From Candidatus Poribacteria bacterium (GTDB taxonomy: Bacteria > Poribacteria > WGA-4E > WGA-3G), in assembly GCA_028820845.1 (NCBI GenBank), contig JAPPII010000049.1:1-32176 (forward strand): DNA of 32,176 nt. Direction: 5' to 3'. Shown piece after piece: positions 3,988 through 24,851 of the stretch; the stretch's first letter is position 1; the number at the start of each line of letters is the position of its first letter. The notes under the pieces were generated by a model. That model ran no database searches and was not told the DNA's origin. It saw only the letters and a list, made by a program, of their open reading frames with translations. The position numbers and the translations under genes are program-made.

Positions 3988-4770
3988 CTATTGTTTGAAG
4001 TCTGACTTCAGTCTTCCCCACGTGAGCGTTAACTTATCCTGCGGTTTGACGGCAAGTACACCTTCAATACCTTTGTCCATGAGCTCTTGAATCTCTTGTT
4101 GGGAGCGCGCAATATTGGAAATCCGCACTTCGTCTATACGGCCGTGGAGAAAGGGCCCCGCTCCGCGTCCGAGCCACAAAACATCGTCGTTCGGGGTGAT
4201 ATTGCCACCGATTTTGCCTTCGCCGTCTAAGACACCGTTGATATAAACCTTGCCTTCACCGGATTTTCCGTCGTAAGTGCCAGCGATATGCACCCACTTC
4301 CGCAACGGCACATCTGTTTTACCTTGAACGACTGCAGGAGCCCAAGCAATCTTATCTGTAGTCATCCGAATTAGGGCCTTCTTGTTGCTCCGCGGTCCCA
4401 CTTTGTAGGCCTTCTCTTTCGTGGCACCTGTACCGCCAGCAGTTGACCATGCCTCAAGATAAATCCACATTTCGACCGTCAGTCCTTCAACGACATCTAA
4501 ACTCTCGCTGTCGGGGATTTCTACAAAATCTCTGGGAGCGTTTCCTCCGAAGACGAGTCCACCACCCGGATTGCCTTCACCCCACTTGGGTCCCATGAGT
4601 TCACCATCATTTCCGTTACCAGAGAGGTCTTTAACAGTTTTCCCCGCACCTGTTTCAAAGGTATACAGTAAAACGGTGTGTTCATCTTGCGCGAGACTGA
4701 GTAATCCATCTCCAGAGGCCAACAAAACAATTAGTGTTACGCAAAACGTCGTGCATATAACATTTTTCAT
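3988..4770 (-). CDS. secreted LamG (concanavalin A-like) domain protein
   Basis: The 260-residue protein has a signal peptide (residues about 1-28, TFCVTLIVLLASGDGLLSLA). One LamG/laminin-G-like jelly-roll domain follows. Hallmarks in order are LLYTFETGAGKTVKDLSGNG, a 'GLTVEMWIYL' strand, RKWVHIAGTYDG, GKVYINGVLDG, and GRIDEVRISNIARSQQEIQEL. Such domains bind carbohydrate or protein and are very abundant in Poribacteria. The last 22 residues (LAVKPQDKLTLTWGRLKSDF...) follow the domain and match the ends of two other proteins in the window (see findings). GAGGAG lies 11 nt upstream of the ATG. It precedes the glycosidase-like gene in the same operon, and its promoter faces away from the GH36-like gene. 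Ligand unknown. Confidence 0.85.
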   Translation of the reverse strand: MKNVICTTFCVTLIVLLASGDGLLSLAQDEHTVLLYTFETGAGKTVKDLSGNGNDGELMGPKWGEGNPGGGLVFGGNAPRDFVEIPDSESLDVVEGLTVEMWIYLEAWSTAGGTGATKEKAYKVGPRSNKKALIRMTTDKIAWAPAVVQGKTDVPLRKWVHIAGTYDGKSGEGKVYINGVLDGEGKIGGNITPNDDVLWLGRGAGPFLHGRIDEVRISNIARSQQEIQELMDKGIEGVLAVKPQDKLTLTWGRLKSDFKQ

Positions 4771-4998: not shown

Positions 4999-7050
4999 AT
5001 GCACTACACATCACAGCAAAATGACTGGCTGGTTCACCCCTTCCGTCAGTCTGCTTCAGTAGAGGAAGCGGACAATCGACTTATTCTCAATAATGGACTT
5101 ATTCGCCGAACATTCGTCACTTCACCTAATTTCACAACAGTTGATTATACCAATCAGATTACCGGTATCAGTCTTCTTCGGGGCATCAAACCAGAGGCGG
5201 TCCTTACGATTGACGGACGCGAATTTGAGGTAGCCGGCTTGAAAGGACAACCCGATTACGCCTATCTTGATTCGGATTGGATTGCGGACTTGGGCAGTGA
5301 CGAGAACGCATTTCAATTTCGCGAGTATCGAATCAGTAAACCTGAAATCCGCTATCCGTGGGTCCGCAGGCGTTCTACGGCACCATCCGTCTATCCACCA
5401 GAGGGCGTAACACTGACGGTTGCGTTTTCATCGCCCCCATCTGTTGACTCCCTTCAGGTTTGCGTACATTATGAATTATATCAAGGCATTCCAGTCTTGT
5501 CCAAATGGATCACTATTCGTAATGAGGGGCAACAACCGATTCAATTGGATGGCTTAAGCTGTGAAATCCTTGCTGTCAATGAGCAGGAGAAGCATCGGTT
5601 ACATGTCGAGAGTGATTATGCCTTCAGTGGAATGGAAACGACACACTGGGGACCGGATGCGGATTACAAGACACAGGTTGATTACCATTATCAGATGCCA
5701 CTCTTGATGACAAGTCGCTATCCACTCGGTCCGGGGGTATCTCTGCAACCGGGAGAAACTTTCAGGAGTTTTCGCACCTTCGAGATTCTGCACGATAGTG
5801 ACGATCGTGAACGAAAAGGACTCGCACGTCGTAAGATGTATCGCGCACTGGCACCACAGGTCACGGAGAATCCGATTCTCATGCACGTTCGGAGTGCCGA
5901 ACCGAACGCGGTACGTTTGGCGATAGATCAGTGTGCCGAAGTCGGATTTGAAATGGTGATTATGACCTTTGGGAGTGGATTCAATATTGAAAGCGAAGAC
6001 CCAGAATACATTACCACAATGAAAGGATTAACCGACTATGCACACAGCAAAGGGATTCAACTCGGTGGTTATACCCTGATGTGTGCTTCGCGGAATGCGG
6101 GTGAAGACTTCAACTGTATTGATCCAGACACAGGGCAGCCCGGAAGTCGGTTTGGACAGAGTGCGTGTCTTGCCAGTGGATGGGCAGACGGCTATTCCCA
6201 GCGAGTGCTGAATTTCATAGACGCAACCGGAATGGATGTCATAGAGACTGATGGTCCCTATCATGGTGATGTTTGTGCTGCAAAGACGCACGAACATCAT
6301 GACAGTTTAGCAGATTCACAGTTGCGCCAGTGGGAAGCGTGTGTACATTTTTACCATGAATGCCGAAAACGCGGTATCTATATCAATTCACCAGATTGGT
6401 ATTACCTCAACGGTTCAAACAAATGCGGTATGGGCTATCGCGAGACGAATTTCAGCTTACCTCGCGAGCGGCAAATTCTAATTGCCCGGCAGAATATCTA
6501 CGATGGAACTTATGAAAAGACACCGAGTATGGGTTGGATGTTCGTCCCCTTGGTGGAGTATCATGGCGGCGGGGCAGCCGCGACATTTGAGCCCCTTTGT
6601 GATCATCTTGATGATTATGAATCGCATTTAGCACAGAACTTCGGCAGTGGCGTGATGGCGTGCTATCGCGGTCCCCGGCTTTTTGACACTGAACAGACCA
6701 AGGTTGTCGTTAAGAAGTGGGTTGACTTCTATAAACAGTATCGTCTAATATTGGATTCTGACCTGATTCACGTACGCCGTCCAGATGGATGCTCCATTGA
6801 TTGTATGCTTCACGTTAATCCGCTGATCACACCTTGTGGACTCGCGATGCTCTATAATCCTACACGGACGGTGAAACAGATCACTTTGAAATTACCCGTC
6901 TATTATACTGGATTATCTGAAGTTGCCGAGATTCGCCAAGAAGAAGGAGCACCTAAACGGTACAAAATTGACCGGAATTACAACGTTGAGATCCCAATTG
7001 AGATGGAAGCAAAAAGCGTTAGTTATCTTATTATTGAATCTGGAGTATGA
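4999..7050 (+). CDS. GH36/clan GH-D-like alpha-galactosidase-type glycoside hydrolase
   Basis: The 683-residue protein has the three-part layout of clan GH-D enzymes. An N-terminal beta-supersandwich covers about residues 1-280 (LILNNGLIRRTF, VHYELYQGIPVLSKWITIRN). A TIM barrel covers about 290-590 (ILMHVRSAEPNAVRLAIDQC, GFEMVIMTFGSGFN, KGIQLGGYTLMC). A C-terminal beta domain follows (LAMLYNPTRTVKQITLKLPV). The segment GMDVIETDGPYHGDVC contains D418 at the place where the family nucleophile ends a barrel strand, but this is a positional guess. No signal peptide is present, unlike its neighbours, so it is predicted cytoplasmic. The ATG follows AGGGG at 7 nt. It probably removes terminal alpha-linked sugars from glycans. 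Exact substrate and family are unproven. Confidence 0.65.
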   Translation: MHYTSQQNDWLVHPFRQSASVEEADNRLILNNGLIRRTFVTSPNFTTVDYTNQITGISLLRGIKPEAVLTIDGREFEVAGLKGQPDYAYLDSDWIADLGSDENAFQFREYRISKPEIRYPWVRRRSTAPSVYPPEGVTLTVAFSSPPSVDSLQVCVHYELYQGIPVLSKWITIRNEGQQPIQLDGLSCEILAVNEQEKHRLHVESDYAFSGMETTHWGPDADYKTQVDYHYQMPLLMTSRYPLGPGVSLQPGETFRSFRTFEILHDSDDRERKGLARRKMYRALAPQVTENPILMHVRSAEPNAVRLAIDQCAEVGFEMVIMTFGSGFNIESEDPEYITTMKGLTDYAHSKGIQLGGYTLMCASRNAGEDFNCIDPDTGQPGSRFGQSACLASGWADGYSQRVLNFIDATGMDVIETDGPYHGDVCAAKTHEHHDSLADSQLRQWEACVHFYHECRKRGIYINSPDWYYLNGSNKCGMGYRETNFSLPRERQILIARQNIYDGTYEKTPSMGWMFVPLVEYHGGGAAATFEPLCDHLDDYESHLAQNFGSGVMACYRGPRLFDTEQTKVVVKKWVDFYKQYRLILDSDLIHVRRPDGCSIDCMLHVNPLITPCGLAMLYNPTRTVKQITLKLPVYYTGLSEVAEIRQEEGAPKRYKIDRNYNVEIPIEMEAKSVSYLIIESGV

Positions 7051-7146
7051 GTTCTCTCTATTTTTTTTGAACAAATTCAGTACTTATCTGCCTAATCTAA
7101 TAGCGGAAGATATAGCGAAAACTTCTAACGATTAGTGAGGAGACAG

Positions 7147-9294
7147 ATGAAACAGAAATATGTTATCGTAGCACTTTACGCTTGCACGCTGATATTTTCA
7201 ACGATAGTCGTGCTAAATACTTGGACACAAAATAATCTTTCGGTAGACGAGAAGCGATTTGATCTTGACAAGAATGACGAGCTCAGTGAGGCTGAAAAGG
7301 CACTCATGATTAGAGTCATGCGGCTCGAAGATGCCAGAGGCACCCAATTCAGTGAGAGCCAGATCCGGGAGATGCAAAGTGGTCAGCAAGGTAGATCCCG
7401 CGGAAGGGGTGGATTCGGAAGACGACGCTCCAGAGTACCTTCAGGACCCCGCTTGGATCCTGAGCAGGTTCAGTTTAGGGATGGCGCAGCCACGGTTCCC
7501 GACCGTGAGACATTTGAAAAACTGTCGTATCAGGGAACAGATGTTCGTATTGACACGCAACTTACTGGTATCGAATTCGTAAAATTCCAGATTGAAAGAA
7601 CGCATACGGAAAATCCGCAACTCTATTTCATGAATACGGAGACGCATCGCTCCCACGGGAGCTTTATGGATGCTGCCGGGTTGGGCCGCGGTCAAGGACA
7701 AATGCGAGGTGTGCTGAGTTATCGCCCACTTTTCACGGCACCAAACGGTGAACCCGGTGTTTATACATTTGAATTTAATCCGAACGATGCCTTTCCGTTT
7801 GAAGAAATCAAGCTTGCCCACGATCTTCTCGTAGCAAAGATGCCAATCCTAAAAAATCGACTCGGTTATTGTCCATTGTGGGGTGCCATCGGTATTTATA
7901 ATCGCGAAAAAGCACTCTATGACGCAGCGGAGTTCCCTGTCTATTTTGAGGACGATCTCTATGCCAATATCGGCTATCTGCCACTGAATCAGGCAGCGTC
8001 ATTCGGTCGGCTGCGTGTATTGGAGATAGATGAGCGTCCTGTAGTTCGAGACATCGTTATCTGCAAAACTTTGCCAAACGAGATGCCACGCGTTGCTGGT
8101 GTTATCACGGGTGTTCGGCAAACGCCGCTTTCACACGTTAACCTCCGTGCAATTCAGGATAAGGTCCCCAACGCCTTCATAGACAAAGCGTGGGAGAATA
8201 ACGCCATTGCACCGCTCATCGGCAAATACGTTTACTACAAGGTCAACCACGATGGTTTTGAAATTAGGGAAGCGACGCTTAAAGAAGTAGAAACCCACTT
8301 CGCTGATCTGCGTCCCTCTAAAACACAAACGCCTGAACGTGATCTATCTACTAAAAAGATTTCGCCCCTTGATGACATTGAATTCGCAGATTCTTCGAGT
8401 TTTGGCGTAAAAACGACGAATTTGGCGACCCTTCGTACATTCGGATTTCCTGATGGAACTGTGCCAGATGGGTTCGGGATACCCTTCTATTTCTATGATG
8501 AATTTATGAAGCATAACGGCTTCTATGCGAAAATTGAGGCGTTGCTCAAAGATTCAGCATTTCGGAATTCACAGGACACGAAGGCATCTGAATTGAAAAA
8601 ACTCAGAGATGAAATCGAAGCAGGTGAGATGCCGGTATGGATGATGAATGCCCTTTCAGAATTACATAACGCATTTCCAGAAGGCACGCCTCTCCGATGC
8701 CGTTCCAGCACGAACAACGAAGACCTCCCCGGCTTCAGTGGCGCGGGGTTATACGACTCCTACACGCATTACCCGAACGAGGGGCATCTGTCAAAATCGG
8801 TTAAGCAGGTATTTGGAAGCCTCTGGAATTTCCGAGCGTTCGAGGCGCGTGATTTCTATCGCATCGACCACCTGACAACCGCTATGGGGGTACTTGTCCA
8901 TCCCAACTTCTCAAAGGAGTTGGCGAATGGGGTTGCTGTAACCGATGACGTTGTCTATCAAACAGTAGGAAATTATTATCTCAACACCCAAGTCGGTGAG
9001 GACCTGGTGACGAATCCTGAAGAACAGTCTATTCCAGAGGAGATCTTGTTGGATTGGTGGGACAGCAATGACTATAGGGTTGTAACTACGTCTAATCGGA
9101 CGACCGATGGCGCACGCATCTTGAAGGATGAGTACTTACGCCAACTGAATCTCTATCTCGGCACGATACATAATAAGTTCAGTCGTCTCTATCCACCGGA
9201 TTTAAGAACAGATAAATTCGCCATGGAAATTGAGTTCAAGATTACCAGTGAGGGTAAGCTCTCCATCAAGCAGGCAAGACCATGGGCACAGTAA
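7147..9294 (+). CDS. membrane-anchored or exported PPDK/glucan-water-dikinase-like phosphotransferase
   Basis: The 715-residue protein starts at ATG 7147 behind GAGGAG, not at the upstream GTG 7135. Residues 1-28 form a signal peptide or anchor (KYVIVALYACTLIFSTIVVL). An EF-hand-like loop follows (FDLDKNDELSEAEK, about 38-52), then an Arg/Gly-rich stretch (about 78-96). A phosphohistidine swivel-type segment lies near residue 330 (TPLSHVNLRA). The C-terminal half is a PPDK/PEP-synthase nucleotide-binding domain: GVKTTNLATL with the conserved Lys, LRCRSSTNNEDLPGFSGAGL (about 516-535), WNFRAFEARDFY, and the terminal strand KLSIKQARPWA. His domain before ATP domain is the order of plant glucan/phosphoglucan water dikinases, not of PPDK. 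Known relatives transfer ATP phosphate to glucans. Substrate here is unknown, and export of an ATP-using enzyme is odd. Confidence 0.7.
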   Translation: MKQKYVIVALYACTLIFSTIVVLNTWTQNNLSVDEKRFDLDKNDELSEAEKALMIRVMRLEDARGTQFSESQIREMQSGQQGRSRGRGGFGRRRSRVPSGPRLDPEQVQFRDGAATVPDRETFEKLSYQGTDVRIDTQLTGIEFVKFQIERTHTENPQLYFMNTETHRSHGSFMDAAGLGRGQGQMRGVLSYRPLFTAPNGEPGVYTFEFNPNDAFPFEEIKLAHDLLVAKMPILKNRLGYCPLWGAIGIYNREKALYDAAEFPVYFEDDLYANIGYLPLNQAASFGRLRVLEIDERPVVRDIVICKTLPNEMPRVAGVITGVRQTPLSHVNLRAIQDKVPNAFIDKAWENNAIAPLIGKYVYYKVNHDGFEIREATLKEVETHFADLRPSKTQTPERDLSTKKISPLDDIEFADSSSFGVKTTNLATLRTFGFPDGTVPDGFGIPFYFYDEFMKHNGFYAKIEALLKDSAFRNSQDTKASELKKLRDEIEAGEMPVWMMNALSELHNAFPEGTPLRCRSSTNNEDLPGFSGAGLYDSYTHYPNEGHLSKSVKQVFGSLWNFRAFEARDFYRIDHLTTAMGVLVHPNFSKELANGVAVTDDVVYQTVGNYYLNTQVGEDLVTNPEEQSIPEEILLDWWDSNDYRVVTTSNRTTDGARILKDEYLRQLNLYLGTIHNKFSRLYPPDLRTDKFAMEIEFKITSEGKLSIKQARPWAQ

Positions 9295-9374: not shown

Positions 9375-10124
9375 TCAATTGGCTTTGAGTTTTCCCCATG
9401 TCACCGCGAGTTTATGTGCCGGATCTACAGCGAGAATTGTGTTAAACCCAGAATTCATAAATTCCTGAATTTCCTTTTGAGACTTCACCTCATTAGAAAC
9501 CCAGAGTTCGTCCATACCGCCAATAAAATGAGATGAGCTAGAAGTCCGCCGATATCCGATGTCAAGGCTGGGTTCTCCAGAAACATCAATGACCCCGCCG
9601 CCAGCAATTGGACCCCCGTCGTCTTCTTCGCCGTTGATATAAATAATCGCTTCTTTGCCATCCCAAGTTGCGGCGACGTGACTCCATTCGCCTTCAGCAA
9701 TCGTGGTTTGCCCAATAAAGTCTTTGACATGATACGTTGTCCAGACGACCCTCTTTGAACCGTGAAACCCAAATTTCCACCCGGCTCCGCCGTCCATCTC
9801 CACGATATTCTGCCAATTGGTAATTCCATCAGGATTTATCCATGCCCCGACACTCATAGGATGCGAGAGTTCCTTTAGAGGTGCCGCGTTTTCGACTGTA
9901 ATAAACGTCTTACCGTCAAAATTAAAACCTTTCTCAAACTCGCCATCAATCCAATCTGCTTTTCCATCAACAGTCCCATCATTTCCATTGCCTGAGAGGT
10001 CGGTGAGGGCATCTCCTTTCCCCTCGTCGAATGTGGCAAGGAACACAATATCTTTCGGTAGTTCAGCGTATATGCTTCCGACACATACTGTTAAGATGAG
10101 GAGTGAATAGACTAAAGTTCGCAT
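9375..10124 (-). CDS. secreted LamG (concanavalin A-like) domain protein, second copy
   Basis: The start at 10124 is chosen because TAAGGAGTTGTAAA gives a good ribosome binding site and the protein then begins with a signal peptide (RTLVYSLLILTVCVGSIYA). An upstream start at 10226 would put 34 non-signal residues in front. The 249-residue protein is a single LamG domain: FLATFDEGKGDALTDLSGNG, HPMSVGAWINPDG, EWSHVAATWDG, EAIIYINGEEDDGG, GGMDELWVSNEVKSQKEIQ. It is paralogous to the LamG protein at 3988-4770, sharing DLSGNGNDG and the whole domain order. It ends in LAVDPAHKLAVTWGKLKAN, the shared C-terminal motif. Predicted role: extracellular or cell-surface binding of glycan or protein. Ligand unknown. 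Confidence 0.85.
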   Translation of the reverse strand: MRTLVYSLLILTVCVGSIYAELPKDIVFLATFDEGKGDALTDLSGNGNDGTVDGKADWIDGEFEKGFNFDGKTFITVENAAPLKELSHPMSVGAWINPDGITNWQNIVEMDGGAGWKFGFHGSKRVVWTTYHVKDFIGQTTIAEGEWSHVAATWDGKEAIIYINGEEDDGGPIAGGGVIDVSGEPSLDIGYRRTSSSSHFIGGMDELWVSNEVKSQKEIQEFMNSGFNTILAVDPAHKLAVTWGKLKAN

Positions 10125-10146
10125 TTTACAACTCCTTATAGGGAAA

Positions 10147-10159
10147 TTGCCAGTGGCAA
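10147..10159. promoter_or_regulatory. perfect inverted repeat upstream of the second LamG gene
   Basis: TTGCCA G TGGCAA is a perfect 6+1+6 palindrome 22 nt upstream of the LamG start codon, in the 5' leader. It could be an operator for a dimeric regulator or a small leader hairpin. The rest of the 220-nt gap (10125-10344) is AT-rich, and no convincing promoter was found in it. Confidence 0.35.
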
Positions 10160-10344
10160 AATCTACTGATTTCAACTTAATAGTGATGCGAAAAGTCTCG
10201 TGATATCCTCTGGCATCACGCTGCATCCCATTTCAATCGTTGCTCATTAGCACAGGTTACGACTTACAAGATTTTAGACGAATATATCCCAATTTTGGTT
10301 GAAGATAAGAAAATTTCCGCTAATCGCGGTATTCTATAGTAATG

Positions 10345-20753: not shown

Positions 20754-23700
20754 CTATTTCAGGATTAGCATTTTCCGTAATGCGAATGTCTCGTTTGTTC
20801 GTAACTGGTAAAAATAGATACCGCTTGCGACACGCTCACCTAAAGCGTTCCGACCGTCCCAATACGCAGCACTGTTCCGCTCGGTGTAGTAGCCCTCGGG
20901 CTGATATCCAAGTGCCAGTTGCCGGATAAGCGTCCCCTTTGCGTCGTAAATGAGAATCTGCACATCCGTACCAGTCGCTAACTGGTATGGAATCCATGTT
21001 TCGGGGTTGAACGGATTTGGATAATTCGCGAGGAGTCGTGTTTCCTGTGGTGTTGCTGATGCTAAAAGACTTTGGAGAAACGCAAGCACCTTTTGGTATT
21101 TCAGTGAACCGTCATCTTCCAACTGTAAGCTGCGAATTTCTGCTTGAATCAGAGCACGGTCAACGGCTGTTAATTTGCCACCAATCTCTGGTGCCGCAGG
21201 ATTCACAGCGTCGTCGAGATCCGATATTACAACAATCAGGTCTGCAGCATTAACAGTGCCATCTCCGTTGACATCGACACGTGAGTTGACGGGTGTGTTT
21301 TGTCCCAAGGCTGCTGCCACTAACATCAAGTCTGTGTTGTTAACTTTGCCATCGGCGTTTATGTCCGAAGCAGAACGGGTTGCTGAAGTGCCCACAAATG
21401 TTTGTGATGTGCCGAGGGCGATACCAGCAGCTTCGCCAGATCCGGTGAAGATTTCTTGGACATTCGATCCGTCAAGATTCGCTCGCTGGATGCTGCTTTT
21501 GGTGATGCTCCCTGTAACAGGGTTCCATACCTGATCCGTCCAGTAAATCTTGCGTCTTGCTGTGTCTAAAACTATGTTTGACGGTCCCGCTAATCCGGTG
21601 ACGAGGGTCTCAACATTGGATCCGTTAAGGTTCGCTCGCGAGATTTGTTTCTCCTCGTAGTCAGCCCAGTACATTTTACCACCTGCAGTATCCAAGGCGA
21701 TATCGCTTGGCGTGTGCGTGCCGTTGACAAGGTCTTCGACGTTTGAACCGTTGAGGTTGGCGCGTTGGATAGTCCCCACTTCTGCGTCTGTCCAGTACAC
21801 CTTGCCCATGGAGGTGTCGAGGGCGATACCCTCTACAGTTCCCAATCCTGTGACGATGTCCTGTACATTTGAACCGTTGAGGTTGGCGCGTTGGACTTTA
21901 CTTTCCGTAATGGCACCTGTGAAGCGATCCCAGCCTTGGTCCGTCCAATAAATTTTGCCTTTAACCAAGTCCAGAGCAATTGACAACGGGCCCGTCAATC
22001 CTGTGATAAGGTCTTGAACGTTTGAACCGTTAAGATTTGCGCGTCGGATTTTACCTGTGTCGGTTTCTGTCCAATAAACCTGACCTCTCGTTAAATCCAG
22101 AGCGATTGCCGATGAATCTGGCACATTGGTGATGATGTCTTCAACGTTCAAGTTATTAATATTGACGCGTCGGATTGCGGATGCCTGTTTATCTGCCCAA
22201 TAGATTGCTGGACTTCCAACAGCCGTCCCCGTCGGGGTGTATATGAGTTCGGGCAATGCTACCGTGCTGAAGCCTTCAGGTGTTCCCAACCCAGTGATAA
22301 CAGATTCTGCATTTGACCCATTGAGATCTGCGCGTTGCACTTTTCCATTGGAATTCGTCCAGTAGAGTTTACGCGCCCCAAAGTCAACAGCGATGCCGAG
22401 AGGAACTGATGTGTTTATTGTAACAAGTCTCTCAACGTTTGATCCATTGGGGTTAGCGCGTCGAATTCTTCCGCTATTTACATTTATGGTTACGTTCAGC
22501 ATTTCTGTCCAGTAGACCTTGCCACCGGCAATAGCGATGCCTGTGAGGGTGCCAGATCCTTTGGCGATATTTTGTGGGTTTGAACCGTTAAGGTTCGCTC
22601 GCTTGAGGTTCGCTCCATCCGACCAGTAGATTCTGCTATTTTCTGTATCTATAGTAATATTGTCTGGCGAATTTGAGCCGGTGATGAAATTCGGTTGGAA
22701 GTTTGAACCGTCTAAATTGAGGCGTTGTATTTTACCCCAAGTATTCGTCACATAAATCTTGCCTTTTGTGGTGTCAATCGCAATACTTTTGACGATACTC
22801 GTTAATCGCTTAACGACTTCAATGTTTGAACCGTCCATATTGGCACGTTGGATCTTCCCCCGCGTGTTGCTAATCTTTTCTGTCCAATAGATTTTACCAT
22901 TCGCTGTATCCACAAAAATACTGGTGGCGTTTTGGACAGTTGGGAAAATCTGCTCTACTCTGTTTTCCGTCAAACGATGGAGTGTGCCTGTCCTGGCATT
23001 TACCCAAAACATTGGTGGACGTTCCGACACATCAATAAGAACGGTTGGAGATGGCGGCAGGTGTTCTGCTCCAGGAGTGCCATAATTGGGTGGGTTGAAG
23101 TTCACACGTCCACTTGATGCGTGCCAATTGTCTGGCAGTCTGCCATCAGAAATTCTGCCTATTGCGTAATTAATTACACGGTACATGGAGACGAGCGGAC
23201 GATTTTGTGAAGTGTTGCCGCTTTGACCAGGCGGATTCCAGTCTTTACGGTTGGTGGTCGTCCTGATGTTGCTCATCTGATCAATAACCTTTACCTGTCT
23301 GTTAGCGTCATAGGAAGGGGTAAACACTGTATTCGGTAATGGGTTGGCGGAGGTGTCGGAAAAACGGAGATTTAAACTACCATTGGCGAAAGTGTAGGTC
23401 CGTTTTGAAGCGTTGTAAAGTTCAATCCACTGTTTATTCGTGGAAGTGCCATCAAGGCCCCACATGATTTCAGAGATGATCAGATCACCAAATGCTGGTT
23501 GATTTGCACCGGAAGGTAACGGGTTTTGATTGGTATCTGTAATTAGTTCAATCCGTCCGCCATTTTGGAAAAAGTGTGTCAGGTTTGGAAAATCAGCATT
23601 TGTGGCATTTTGATCGACCGAGTAATATGAAAGGTAGGTTTTGAAATCGCCAGTTTCATTTACACCTGACTGACGCGTCCGTGCTAAAAGTACGAATTCG

Positions 23701-24851
23701 CCTGGGCGGATGACGAAATTATTAGGATTTAAACCAGAAGGTTTCTCGACAGCGATCGTAATCCCTGTCGTATCCACAAATTGGTGAAATTCAATATCTA
23801 TTGTTACATCTGGATTCAGTTGGCGTAGCGTGCGGAGCGGCATTAGATCGCTGATTGAATTTCCCGATACCCATAGGACTTCGAGATTTTCCAAGTTTGA
23901 GAGTGGTGCCGCGTCCGTGATTTGGTTCGTATTGAGATAGAGTCTCCTGAGGCGCGTTAAATCCTCGAGGGCAGTAATATCACGAATTTCGTTAGCACTG
24001 AGATTGAGGTGTGTTATTTCAGTCAATTCTGTGAGGGGTGTTACATCTTGAATCTGATTTCCTGAAATCTCTAATCTGATGAGCTGCTTTAATCCTGTGA
24101 GGACTGCGATATTGCTAATTTGATTCTCTGACAAGTTTAAGTATGTTATCTGCGTCAGATCCGCGAGGGGTGTGAGATCCGAGATTTGGTTTCCAAAGAG
24201 GTCTAACCTCCTGATTCCTTCTGAGTTACTGATATGTGCAATGTCGGTAATCTGATTCTCTGATAGATTCAGAGAGAATATTTGTGTCAGCCCCGCGAGG
24301 GGTGTGAGATCCGAGATTTGATTTCCCGATAGTTCTAATCTTATAATGCCTTTCAATTCTGTGAGGGGGGTGATGTCCCTGATACCATTGTTCAGGAGAT
24401 TTAAATCTGTTATTTGTATCAATTCCGTGAGCGGCGCAATATCGACAATCTGGTTGGAACCGAGGTTTAACCGGGTCAAGTTTACCAATGTCTCAAGCAC
24501 TGTGATATCTTGGATACGATTAGAATTGAGACGCAACTCTGTTAGGTGCGTTAGTCCTTCAAGGAGAGTGATGGTTGTAATTTCATTAGCACTAAGATTT
24601 AGAACTTCTAACTGGGTTGCGTGTTCTAATCCTTTAATGTCCGTTATTTCGCTGTTTTCAGCATTTAAGATGGTTAATGCTTGCATCGCCTGCTGTGTGA
24701 GCGAACCGTTTGCCTCTATGTTAAGGGCTTGACGCACTGCCGTTCTTAAATTTTCGTCCGGCATCCATTCTGTCTCATTTTGCGCCGAGGCGATGTTAAG
24801 GCAACAACTGAGAGCAGTGATCACAACAAAGAGCCTGTAAAAACCTTTCAT
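20754..24851 (-). CDS. giant secreted LRR / lamin-tail / YWTD-propeller / dockerin / FlgD-like surface protein
   Basis: A 1365-residue exported protein with a signal peptide at residues 1-23 (FVVITALSCCLNIASAQ). Domains in order: thirteen 22-residue leucine-rich repeats at about 59-345 (consensus LxxLNLSxNQIxDITPLxxL, internalin-like); a lamin-tail-like segment at about 452-500 (DLIISEIMWG, KQWIELYNAS); and about twelve LDL-receptor-type YWTD units at 612-1150 (GKIYWTE, RANLNGSNV). Two dockerin-type calcium loops follow at about 1163-1215 (DINADGKVNNTDL, DVNGDGTVNAADL). The end at 1270-1365 is a FlgD-like domain beginning NYPNPFNPETWIPYQLA and ending ASGIYFYQLRTNETFALRKM. That end resembles C-terminal sorting or attachment domains of exported proteins. 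AAAGGA lies upstream of the ATG. It is likely displayed on the cell surface for adhesion or host/particle contact, inferred from domains only. Confidence 0.9.
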   Translation of the reverse strand: MKGFYRLFVVITALSCCLNIASAQNETEWMPDENLRTAVRQALNIEANGSLTQQAMQALTILNAENSEITDIKGLEHATQLEVLNLSANEITTITLLEGLTHLTELRLNSNRIQDITVLETLVNLTRLNLGSNQIVDIAPLTELIQITDLNLLNNGIRDITPLTELKGIIRLELSGNQISDLTPLAGLTQIFSLNLSENQITDIAHISNSEGIRRLDLFGNQISDLTPLADLTQITYLNLSENQISNIAVLTGLKQLIRLEISGNQIQDVTPLTELTEITHLNLSANEIRDITALEDLTRLRRLYLNTNQITDAAPLSNLENLEVLWVSGNSISDLMPLRTLRQLNPDVTIDIEFHQFVDTTGITIAVEKPSGLNPNNFVIRPGEFVLLARTRQSGVNETGDFKTYLSYYSVDQNATNADFPNLTHFFQNGGRIELITDTNQNPLPSGANQPAFGDLIISEIMWGLDGTSTNKQWIELYNASKRTYTFANGSLNLRFSDTSANPLPNTVFTPSYDANRQVKVIDQMSNIRTTTNRKDWNPPGQSGNTSQNRPLVSMYRVINYAIGRISDGRLPDNWHASSGRVNFNPPNYGTPGAEHLPPSPTVLIDVSERPPMFWVNARTGTLHRLTENRVEQIFPTVQNATSIFVDTANGKIYWTEKISNTRGKIQRANMDGSNIEVVKRLTSIVKSIAIDTTKGKIYVTNTWGKIQRLNLDGSNFQPNFITGSNSPDNITIDTENSRIYWSDGANLKRANLNGSNPQNIAKGSGTLTGIAIAGGKVYWTEMLNVTINVNSGRIRRANPNGSNVERLVTINTSVPLGIAVDFGARKLYWTNSNGKVQRADLNGSNAESVITGLGTPEGFSTVALPELIYTPTGTAVGSPAIYWADKQASAIRRVNINNLNVEDIITNVPDSSAIALDLTRGQVYWTETDTGKIRRANLNGSNVQDLITGLTGPLSIALDLVKGKIYWTDQGWDRFTGAITESKVQRANLNGSNVQDIVTGLGTVEGIALDTSMGKVYWTDAEVGTIQRANLNGSNVEDLVNGTHTPSDIALDTAGGKMYWADYEEKQISRANLNGSNVETLVTGLAGPSNIVLDTARRKIYWTDQVWNPVTGSITKSSIQRANLDGSNVQEIFTGSGEAAGIALGTSQTFVGTSATRSASDINADGKVNNTDLMLVAAALGQNTPVNSRVDVNGDGTVNAADLIVVISDLDDAVNPAAPEIGGKLTAVDRALIQAEIRSLQLEDDGSLKYQKVLAFLQSLLASATPQETRLLANYPNPFNPETWIPYQLATGTDVQILIYDAKGTLIRQLALGYQPEGYYTERNSAAYWDGRNALGERVASGIYFYQLRTNETFALRKMLILK
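21402..23018 (-). repeat. coding tandem repeats of the YWTD propeller
   Basis: About twelve units of roughly 40-48 codons encode D...GKIYWTD...I.RANLNGSNV. The DNA segment around tttgaaccgtt(a/g)aggtt recurs almost unchanged in several units, which indicates expansion by duplication or recombination. Confidence 0.8.
23817..24677 (-). repeat. coding tandem repeats (13 leucine-rich repeats, 66-nt period)
   Basis: Thirteen repeats of exactly 22 codons, each with L..L.LS.N.I.DI..L. The constant 66-nt spacing looks array-like at DNA level but is coding. Confidence 0.85.

Follow-up and report, generated by a model that had tools for sequence, protein, structure and literature searches.

A conserved exported dikinase of Candidatus Poribacteria and its relatives in other phyla

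Introduction

The dikinases of the PPDK/PEPS/RPH/GWD superfamily have been studied as cytoplasmic or plastid enzymes. GWD and PWD are plastid enzymes with carbohydrate-binding modules (CBM45), and GWD places its swivelling domain before a C-terminal ATP-grasp domain, which is also the order in the protein described here. FAM20C and CotH have a protein-kinase-like fold and are not dikinases. As far as the excerpts of their descriptions go, both resemble the proposed role of the present protein in that they phosphorylate away from the ordinary cytoplasm, FAM20C in the secretory pathway and CotH in the spore coat.

The closest described systems differ in the order and identity of their parts. PEP synthase and PPDK are cytoplasmic enzymes in which the ATP-grasp domain comes first and which carry a PEP/pyruvate barrel. 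RPH (5hv1, 5fbs) has the order ATP-grasp, rifampin domain and swivelling domain. The available sections of the RPH report, which describe no export of this enzyme, state that Lys22Ala abolishes activity and that mutants of Arg117 and Thr136 lose rifampin phosphorylation, whereas Glu297Ala does not (PMC4844700). For GWD and PWD, the available part of PMC7569903 gives a mechanism in which the beta-phosphate is transferred to a histidine and the gamma-phosphate to water. Dikinase parts have also been recombined in the two-component phenol dikinase HpeHI (PMC12167813) and in VadK, a PPDK-derived autophosphorylating kinase (PMC12636432). These reports, in the sections available, indicate that dikinase parts move to new acceptors, and they describe export for neither system.

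In this study, we analysed a gene from a Candidatus Poribacteria bacterium. It lies in the window, the 32,176-nucleotide stretch of DNA under analysis, which belongs to an assembly of 5.69 Mb. The Poribacteria lineage is best known as sponge symbionts. The protein encoded by the gene belongs to the PPDK/PEPS/RPH/GWD superfamily, having both the ATP-grasp and the swivelling domain, and ATP-dependent phosphohistidine formation is predicted for it. Public databases presumably annotate such proteins as 'PEP/pyruvate-binding domain-containing protein'. We found no description of an exported dikinase branch in the literature searched, where most subscription journals fall outside coverage.

Results

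Gene and overall architecture

The features of the gene are collected in Table 1. From the N-terminus, the protein consists of an export segment, an EF-hand-type loop, an Arg/Gly linker, domain X, the swivelling domain and the ATP-grasp domain. The model of the whole protein, built from 48 sequences, had a mean pLDDT of 85.7 and a pTM of 0.78. The ATG start was favoured over a GTG at 7135 because of the position of the ribosome-binding site, and its Met also begins the conserved N-terminus in the Poribacteria relatives. A wrong start or an internal open reading frame was ruled out by these two observations. A chance open reading frame was excluded because 191 relatives were confirmed and because the whole-gene dN/dS was 0.057-0.065 against four Poribacteria orthologues (85-89% identity), values for which dS was near saturation.

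Table 1. Coordinates of the features assigned to the exported dikinase gene
Feature	Residues	Positions	Strand	Basis
Ribosome-binding site GAGGAG		7137..7142	+	4 bases before ATG 7147, read directly
Whole gene, exported dikinase, 715 aa		7147..9294	+	ORF, Pfam, 191 relatives
Export signal, cleaved or N-in/C-out anchor	1-28	7147..7230	+	hydrophobic-core survey; model helix 2-27
EF-hand-type calcium loop DLDKNDELSEAE	39-50 (D39-E50)	7261..7296	+	read directly; canonical in relatives
Arg/Gly-rich linker, probably disordered	about 83-96 (R83-R96)	7393..7434	+	sequence; pLDDT <50 at 80-96
Domain X, proposed acceptor-binding domain, invariant His170 (7654-7656)	104-276	7456..7974	+	conservation, model, dN/dS
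Swivelling phosphohistidine domain, predicted catalytic His330 (8134-8136)	277-390	7975..8316	+	Enzyme I fold match, conservation
ATP-grasp nucleotide-binding domain (K422, R519, S538, E694, E696, Q709, R711)	401-715	8347..9291	+	PF01326, fold match, conservation

Swivelling and ATP-grasp domains

The Pfam family PPDK_N (PF01326) matched residues 418-713 with an E value of 1.6e-26 and 93.9 bits against a cut-off of 27, and all 48 members of alignment A1 matched it at E <= 1. In the model, residues 401-715 matched AMPPNP-bound RPH (5hv1) with a Z score of 28.9 and an rmsd of 2.4 over 288 aligned residues at 20% identity; PEP synthase (2ols, Z 27.7) and PPDK (1dik, Z 20.2) were also matched. The predicted catalytic His330 lies in the segment QTPLSHVNLRA, in which PLSH corresponds to residues 327-330. 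Residues 277-387 of the model matched Enzyme I (5woy) with a Z score of 9.0 and an rmsd of 4.2 over 105 aligned residues. The Pfam family GWD1_pHisD matched residues 315-377 with 11.7 bits, below its cut-off of 27; among the A1 members, 30 of 48 matched it at E <= 1, with a best value of 3.4e-05.

We compared the nucleotide site with that of RPH by mapping the numbering by hand on the alignment, with the roles of residues other than Gln309 and Arg311 taken from the available part of PMC4844700. The RPH residues Lys22, Arg117, Thr136, Glu297, Gln309 and Arg311 correspond to K422, R519, S538, E696, Q709 and R711, and His825 corresponds to H330; Gln309 and Arg311 were named by counting along the chain sequence. 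These seven positions are kept in all 88 distinct core sequences, with Ser at the position of Thr136, and position 694 is occupied by Glu in 68 of these sequences and by Asp in the other 20. The distant groups keep the key residues wherever they are ungapped, S538 being replaced by Thr in two members of the far group. An earlier, sequence-only reading of this DNA had recognised a phosphohistidine segment (PLSH) before a complete PPDK-type ATP domain and had proposed a check of the ATP site in a structural model. The two domains are found in this arrangement, and all the key residues are present.

N-terminus and export

Residues 1-28 consist of two Lys followed by about 20 mostly hydrophobic residues. 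This hydrophobic stretch exceeds the usual length in cleaved signal peptides, and in the Poribacteria species the N-terminus may therefore be an uncleaved N-in/C-out anchor. Whether the segment is cleaved or kept as an anchor, the enzyme faces outwards. A lipoprotein anchor was also considered; Cys13 lies inside the hydrophobic core and is absent in some Poribacteria relatives (L016, L026), and it was not called a lipobox. The EF-hand-type loop takes the canonical form DLDGNGELSTSE in relatives such as L021. The EF-hand_5 family was matched (9.2e-07) in 1 of the 48 members of alignment A1, most rows of which are cut after that region. The signal peptide, the EF-hand-like loop and the Arg/Gly-rich linker pointed out in the sequence-only reading are all found, with the reservation that the signal may be uncleaved. 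An export signal is carried by an intact dikinase, and the puzzle that the reading raised, ATP beyond the cytoplasmic membrane, is a real one.

The same reading had suggested a survey of homologues for the N-terminal hydrophobic segment, and the segment proved to be widely kept. The threshold was of our own choice and consisted of an uncharged core with a mean hydropathy of at least 2.0 over 10 residues after a possible start. After repeat copies of loci were removed, 87 distinct core open reading frames were counted, nine of them without a readable 5' end. The remaining 78 carried an export signal in 76 cases when any start was allowed and in 72 cases with ATG only; the two under the threshold with any start were L090 and L104. 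None of seven PPDK/PEPS-type control reading frames from the same genomes passed, their best hydrophobic core reaching 1.64. The controls were 7 of 28 rows (L080, L081, L113, L114, L116, L123 and L131), the rest being family members, broken frames or wrong-strand loci, and their scoring differed slightly from the core survey in that a Lys or Arg was also demanded before the hydrophobic core. In the far group of 13 rows, which includes ordinary PPDK/PEPS, the threshold was passed by 5 of the 11 with a readable 5' end.

The N-terminal parts of the relatives vary by branch. EF-hand-type loops and Gly/Arg-rich linkers occur in Poribacteria, some Planctomycetota and SAR86-type Gammaproteobacteria, and a different N-terminal domain, containing a DxDxDG-type stretch, is found in other branches. 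A T9SS sorting tail scored above the NCBIfam cut-off in three of six relatives scanned (L070, L047, L060) and above the Pfam cut-off in four of seven (L058, L060, L072, L070). Large versions from Planctomycetota carry FG-GAP repeats (L148, L149) or a proprotein-convertase P-domain (L150). These tails, repeats and P-domain place the family outside the cytoplasm.

Domain X

The model of domain X (170 aa) was confident, with a pLDDT of 93.1 and a pTM of 0.90. The 54 diverse sequences of alignment A2 all share His170 and Gly188, and nearly all share Lys146 and Asn163. Domain X showed the lowest dN/dS of the protein at 0.015-0.023, compared with 0.050-0.074 for the ATP part and 0.167-0.212 for residues 1-103 (four orthologue pairs; dS is high and the ratios are rough). 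A search of the PDB with the model returned nothing at E <= 0.001, an absence of match that does not show a new fold. The best structural neighbour was polyphosphate kinase 1 (PPK1), with a Z score of 5.1 and an rmsd of 5.4 over 105 residues, which is in the range of chance. The strongest constraint in the protein falls on domain X, which also contains an invariant His and occupies the position of the acceptor domain in other dikinases; on these grounds we consider that it is probably an acceptor-binding domain.

Distribution and gene neighbourhood

A scan of genome contigs gave 191 confirmed relatives, and 79 loci were retained. They come from Poribacteria, Planctomycetota, Verrucomicrobiota, Gammaproteobacteria, Bacteroidota and one Chloroflexota bin named Anaerolineae. 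In the phylum Poribacteria, 55 of 84 genomes matched at E <= 1e-10. The gene is present in 54 of the 58 genomes of one family, in a few as fragments, whereas outside that family a match was obtained in 1 of 26 (G010, with two weak partial matches resembling ordinary PPDK-type proteins). At E <= 1e-40, the phylum samples gave 8 of 296 genomes for Bacteroidota, 10 of 246 for Planctomycetota, 3 of 240 for Verrucomicrobiota and 1 of 249 for Pseudomonadota, where each count includes the centre genome and the phyla are named after the loci taken as centres. From these counts, the overall distribution is patchy, with near fixation in one Poribacteria family. In a tree of 85 sequences, constructed without plant GWD sequences, the Poribacteria formed one clade of 34 rows with a support of 100, beside a group of Planctomycetota and Gammaproteobacteria of which several have EF-hands. 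The placement of L093, L094 and L109-L112, which form long deep branches, is unsure.

Several variants were observed among the relatives. The reading frames of L109-L112 from the Bacteroidota sample (about 630 aa) show a minimal form with the export signal, domain X, the swivelling domain and the ATP-grasp domain, without additional domains. The frames of L148 and L149 (about 1,800 aa) place the FG-GAP repeats before the dikinase core, and L148 in addition shows a dockerin-like tail that scores below the cut-off. The frames of L101 and L102 of Neolewinella (about 990 aa) represent a second type, exported and dikinase-like, with another N-terminal half of ~490 residues and the His segment VSHVQLLARN. 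The dikinase-like proteins of L098 and L099 have a lamin-tail domain inserted in the ATP-grasp domain, as detected with Pfam in L099. One Verrucomicrobiales genome (G088) has 12 matches to the family profile, including several full-length paralogues, and the locus of Neolewinella agarilytica (L059) has an apparent in-frame stop near 6,070, between the N-terminal part and domain X.

Among the clusters of neighbouring reading frames, none was common to many phyla except the dikinase itself, and no widely conserved cross-phylum neighbour named an operon or a pathway. A GH36-like gene lies upstream at 4999-7050 (+), with a GH36 N-terminal domain at 22.4 bits against a cut-off of 27. Such a gene is present in 21 of the 28 Poribacteria loci with enough upstream sequence; because its distance varies from 87 to 4672 bases, the two genes are not a tight pair. 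The window also encodes two LamG-type lectin-fold proteins near the dikinase gene, at 9375-10226 (-) and 3988-4770 (-). The former gave a weak match to a clostridial-neurotoxin receptor domain (20.7 bits, cut-off 23.8), which most likely reflects the shared lectin fold. At 20754-24851 (-), a protein of 1365 aa carries leucine-rich repeats, LDL-receptor class B repeats, a dockerin domain and a FlgD-like/T9SS-like tail.

Discussion

We have described a real, conserved exported dikinase. Both the sequence and the model support export, the fold and an intact catalytic site. The features that mark the family, an export signal and a domain X with an invariant His, followed by the swivel His and the ATP-grasp domain, are all present. 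By the tests made, the protein is not GWD, PEP synthase, PPDK or RPH. On the one hand, it shares with RPH the ATP-grasp fold, the matched residues of the nucleotide site and the swivel His. On the other hand, its swivelling domain precedes the ATP-grasp domain, RPH is without domain X, and the rifampin-binding domain that stands between the ATP-grasp and C-terminal swivelling domains is absent from our protein, which scored 46.5 bits of a cut-off of 999 with the NCBIfam model of rifampin phosphotransferase. With PEP synthase and PPDK it has in common the principle of an ATP-grasp domain and a swivel His, but the C-terminal PEP/pyruvate barrel is absent; only PPDK_N and the weak GWD1_pHisD match were found, the protein ends at the ATP-grasp domain, and the PEP synthase NCBIfam model gave 73.9 bits of a cut-off of 598. 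HpeHI and VadK have other acceptor parts. The description as glucan-water-dikinase-like, given in the sequence-only reading, holds only for the domain order and the weak phosphohistidine match around His330. It does not extend to glucan binding, as no starch- or carbohydrate-binding module was found in the protein at E <= 10 in Pfam, and structurally the ATP part is matched best by RPH and PEP synthase.

Considering that the export signal and the catalytic residues are kept in other phyla, the protein probably phosphorylates something outside the cell. We therefore favour, with a probability of roughly 0.6, an exported dikinase that phosphorylates an extracytoplasmic acceptor, probably with external ATP. 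In this reading, the N-terminus would carry the protein across the inner membrane, with a possible tether in this Poribacteria species, and the ATP-grasp domain would bind a nucleotide, most likely ATP outside the cell. By homology to RPH and GWD, His330 on the swivelling domain would take the beta-phosphate and the gamma-phosphate would pass to water. The swivelling domain may then turn to domain X, where the acceptor would be held and phosphorylated if this domain corresponds to the acceptor site of other dikinases. The patchy distribution, the absence of a shared neighbour and the lack of a confident match between domain X and a known acceptor domain count against this reading.

ATP is scarce outside cells and is not expected outside the cytoplasm, which also counts against external ATP and speaks for phosphohistidine chemistry with another donor, such as PEP, pyrophosphate, polyphosphate or a phosphorylated metabolite, possibly in reverse as a means of scavenging organic phosphate. 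A swivelling domain can run without ATP, because HpeH on its own uses 4-phosphoacetophenone as phosphate donor and a second phenol, AV, as acceptor, according to the available part of PMC12167813. PPK1, as the best neighbour of domain X, points in the same direction, but its Z score is one that chance can give. Since the residues examined at the nucleotide site are kept in all core sequences, and would not be needed if the donor were not a nucleotide, we regard another donor as unlikely. The scarcity of ATP would also be avoided by an effector that is active after release in an ATP-rich place, inside sponge, algal or prey cells or at sites of lysis. The generality of export, the T9SS tails of some Bacteroidota versions and the retention of the gene in nearly every genome of one Poribacteria family are in keeping with this. 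However, we saw no delivery domain and no neighbour with cross-phylum conservation. Conservation of the core is also high, and some versions lie within large surface-type proteins with FG-GAP repeats, so that an effector seems quite improbable.

The fusions with adhesion-type repeats and EF-hands could indicate a catalytically silent protein that uses the dikinase fold as a sensor of ATP or a ligand, or as an adhesion module. We consider there to be little chance of this, as relatives in different phyla retain both the transfer His and the ATP-site residues, and mere ligand binding would not need the swivel His. An extracellular ATP-grasp ligase that joins two compounds via a phosphorylated intermediate, like the prodigiosin ligase PigC, is very improbable; the PigC and RedH models do match the ATP part (44.7 and 34.7 bits), but far under their cut-offs (1300 and 1350) and no better than those of PEP synthase or RPH. 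It is equally hard to credit a cytoplasmic enzyme, whether by a wrong start or by an anchor with the enzyme inside, although ATP is in the cytoplasm. The start is backed by the ribosome-binding site and by conservation. The anchor with the enzyme inside, which the sequence-only reading had left as a way out, is contradicted by the positive charges before the hydrophobic segment, which indicate an N-in, C-out orientation, and by the T9SS tails, FG-GAP repeats and P-domain of relatives.

In summary, if the exported dikinase phosphorylates an extracytoplasmic acceptor, this is probably a glycan of the surface or matrix, or else a small molecule. A broader proposal, which we put forward tentatively and hold to be doubtful as yet, is that widespread extracellular dikinases phosphorylate a surface or matrix polymer with outside ATP via the swivelling domain and a new acceptor domain. 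They would thus form an outside counterpart of the plant starch dikinases, present in almost every sampled genome of one Poribacteria family. The family is testable because a cultured member exists (Neolewinella persica, L060). The existence of a conserved branch that is exported and retains an intact nucleotide site implies that phosphate is transferred outside the cytoplasm in several phyla. With such an enzyme, one can test directly whether external ATP serves bacteria in phosphorylating surface glycans or in scavenging molecules.
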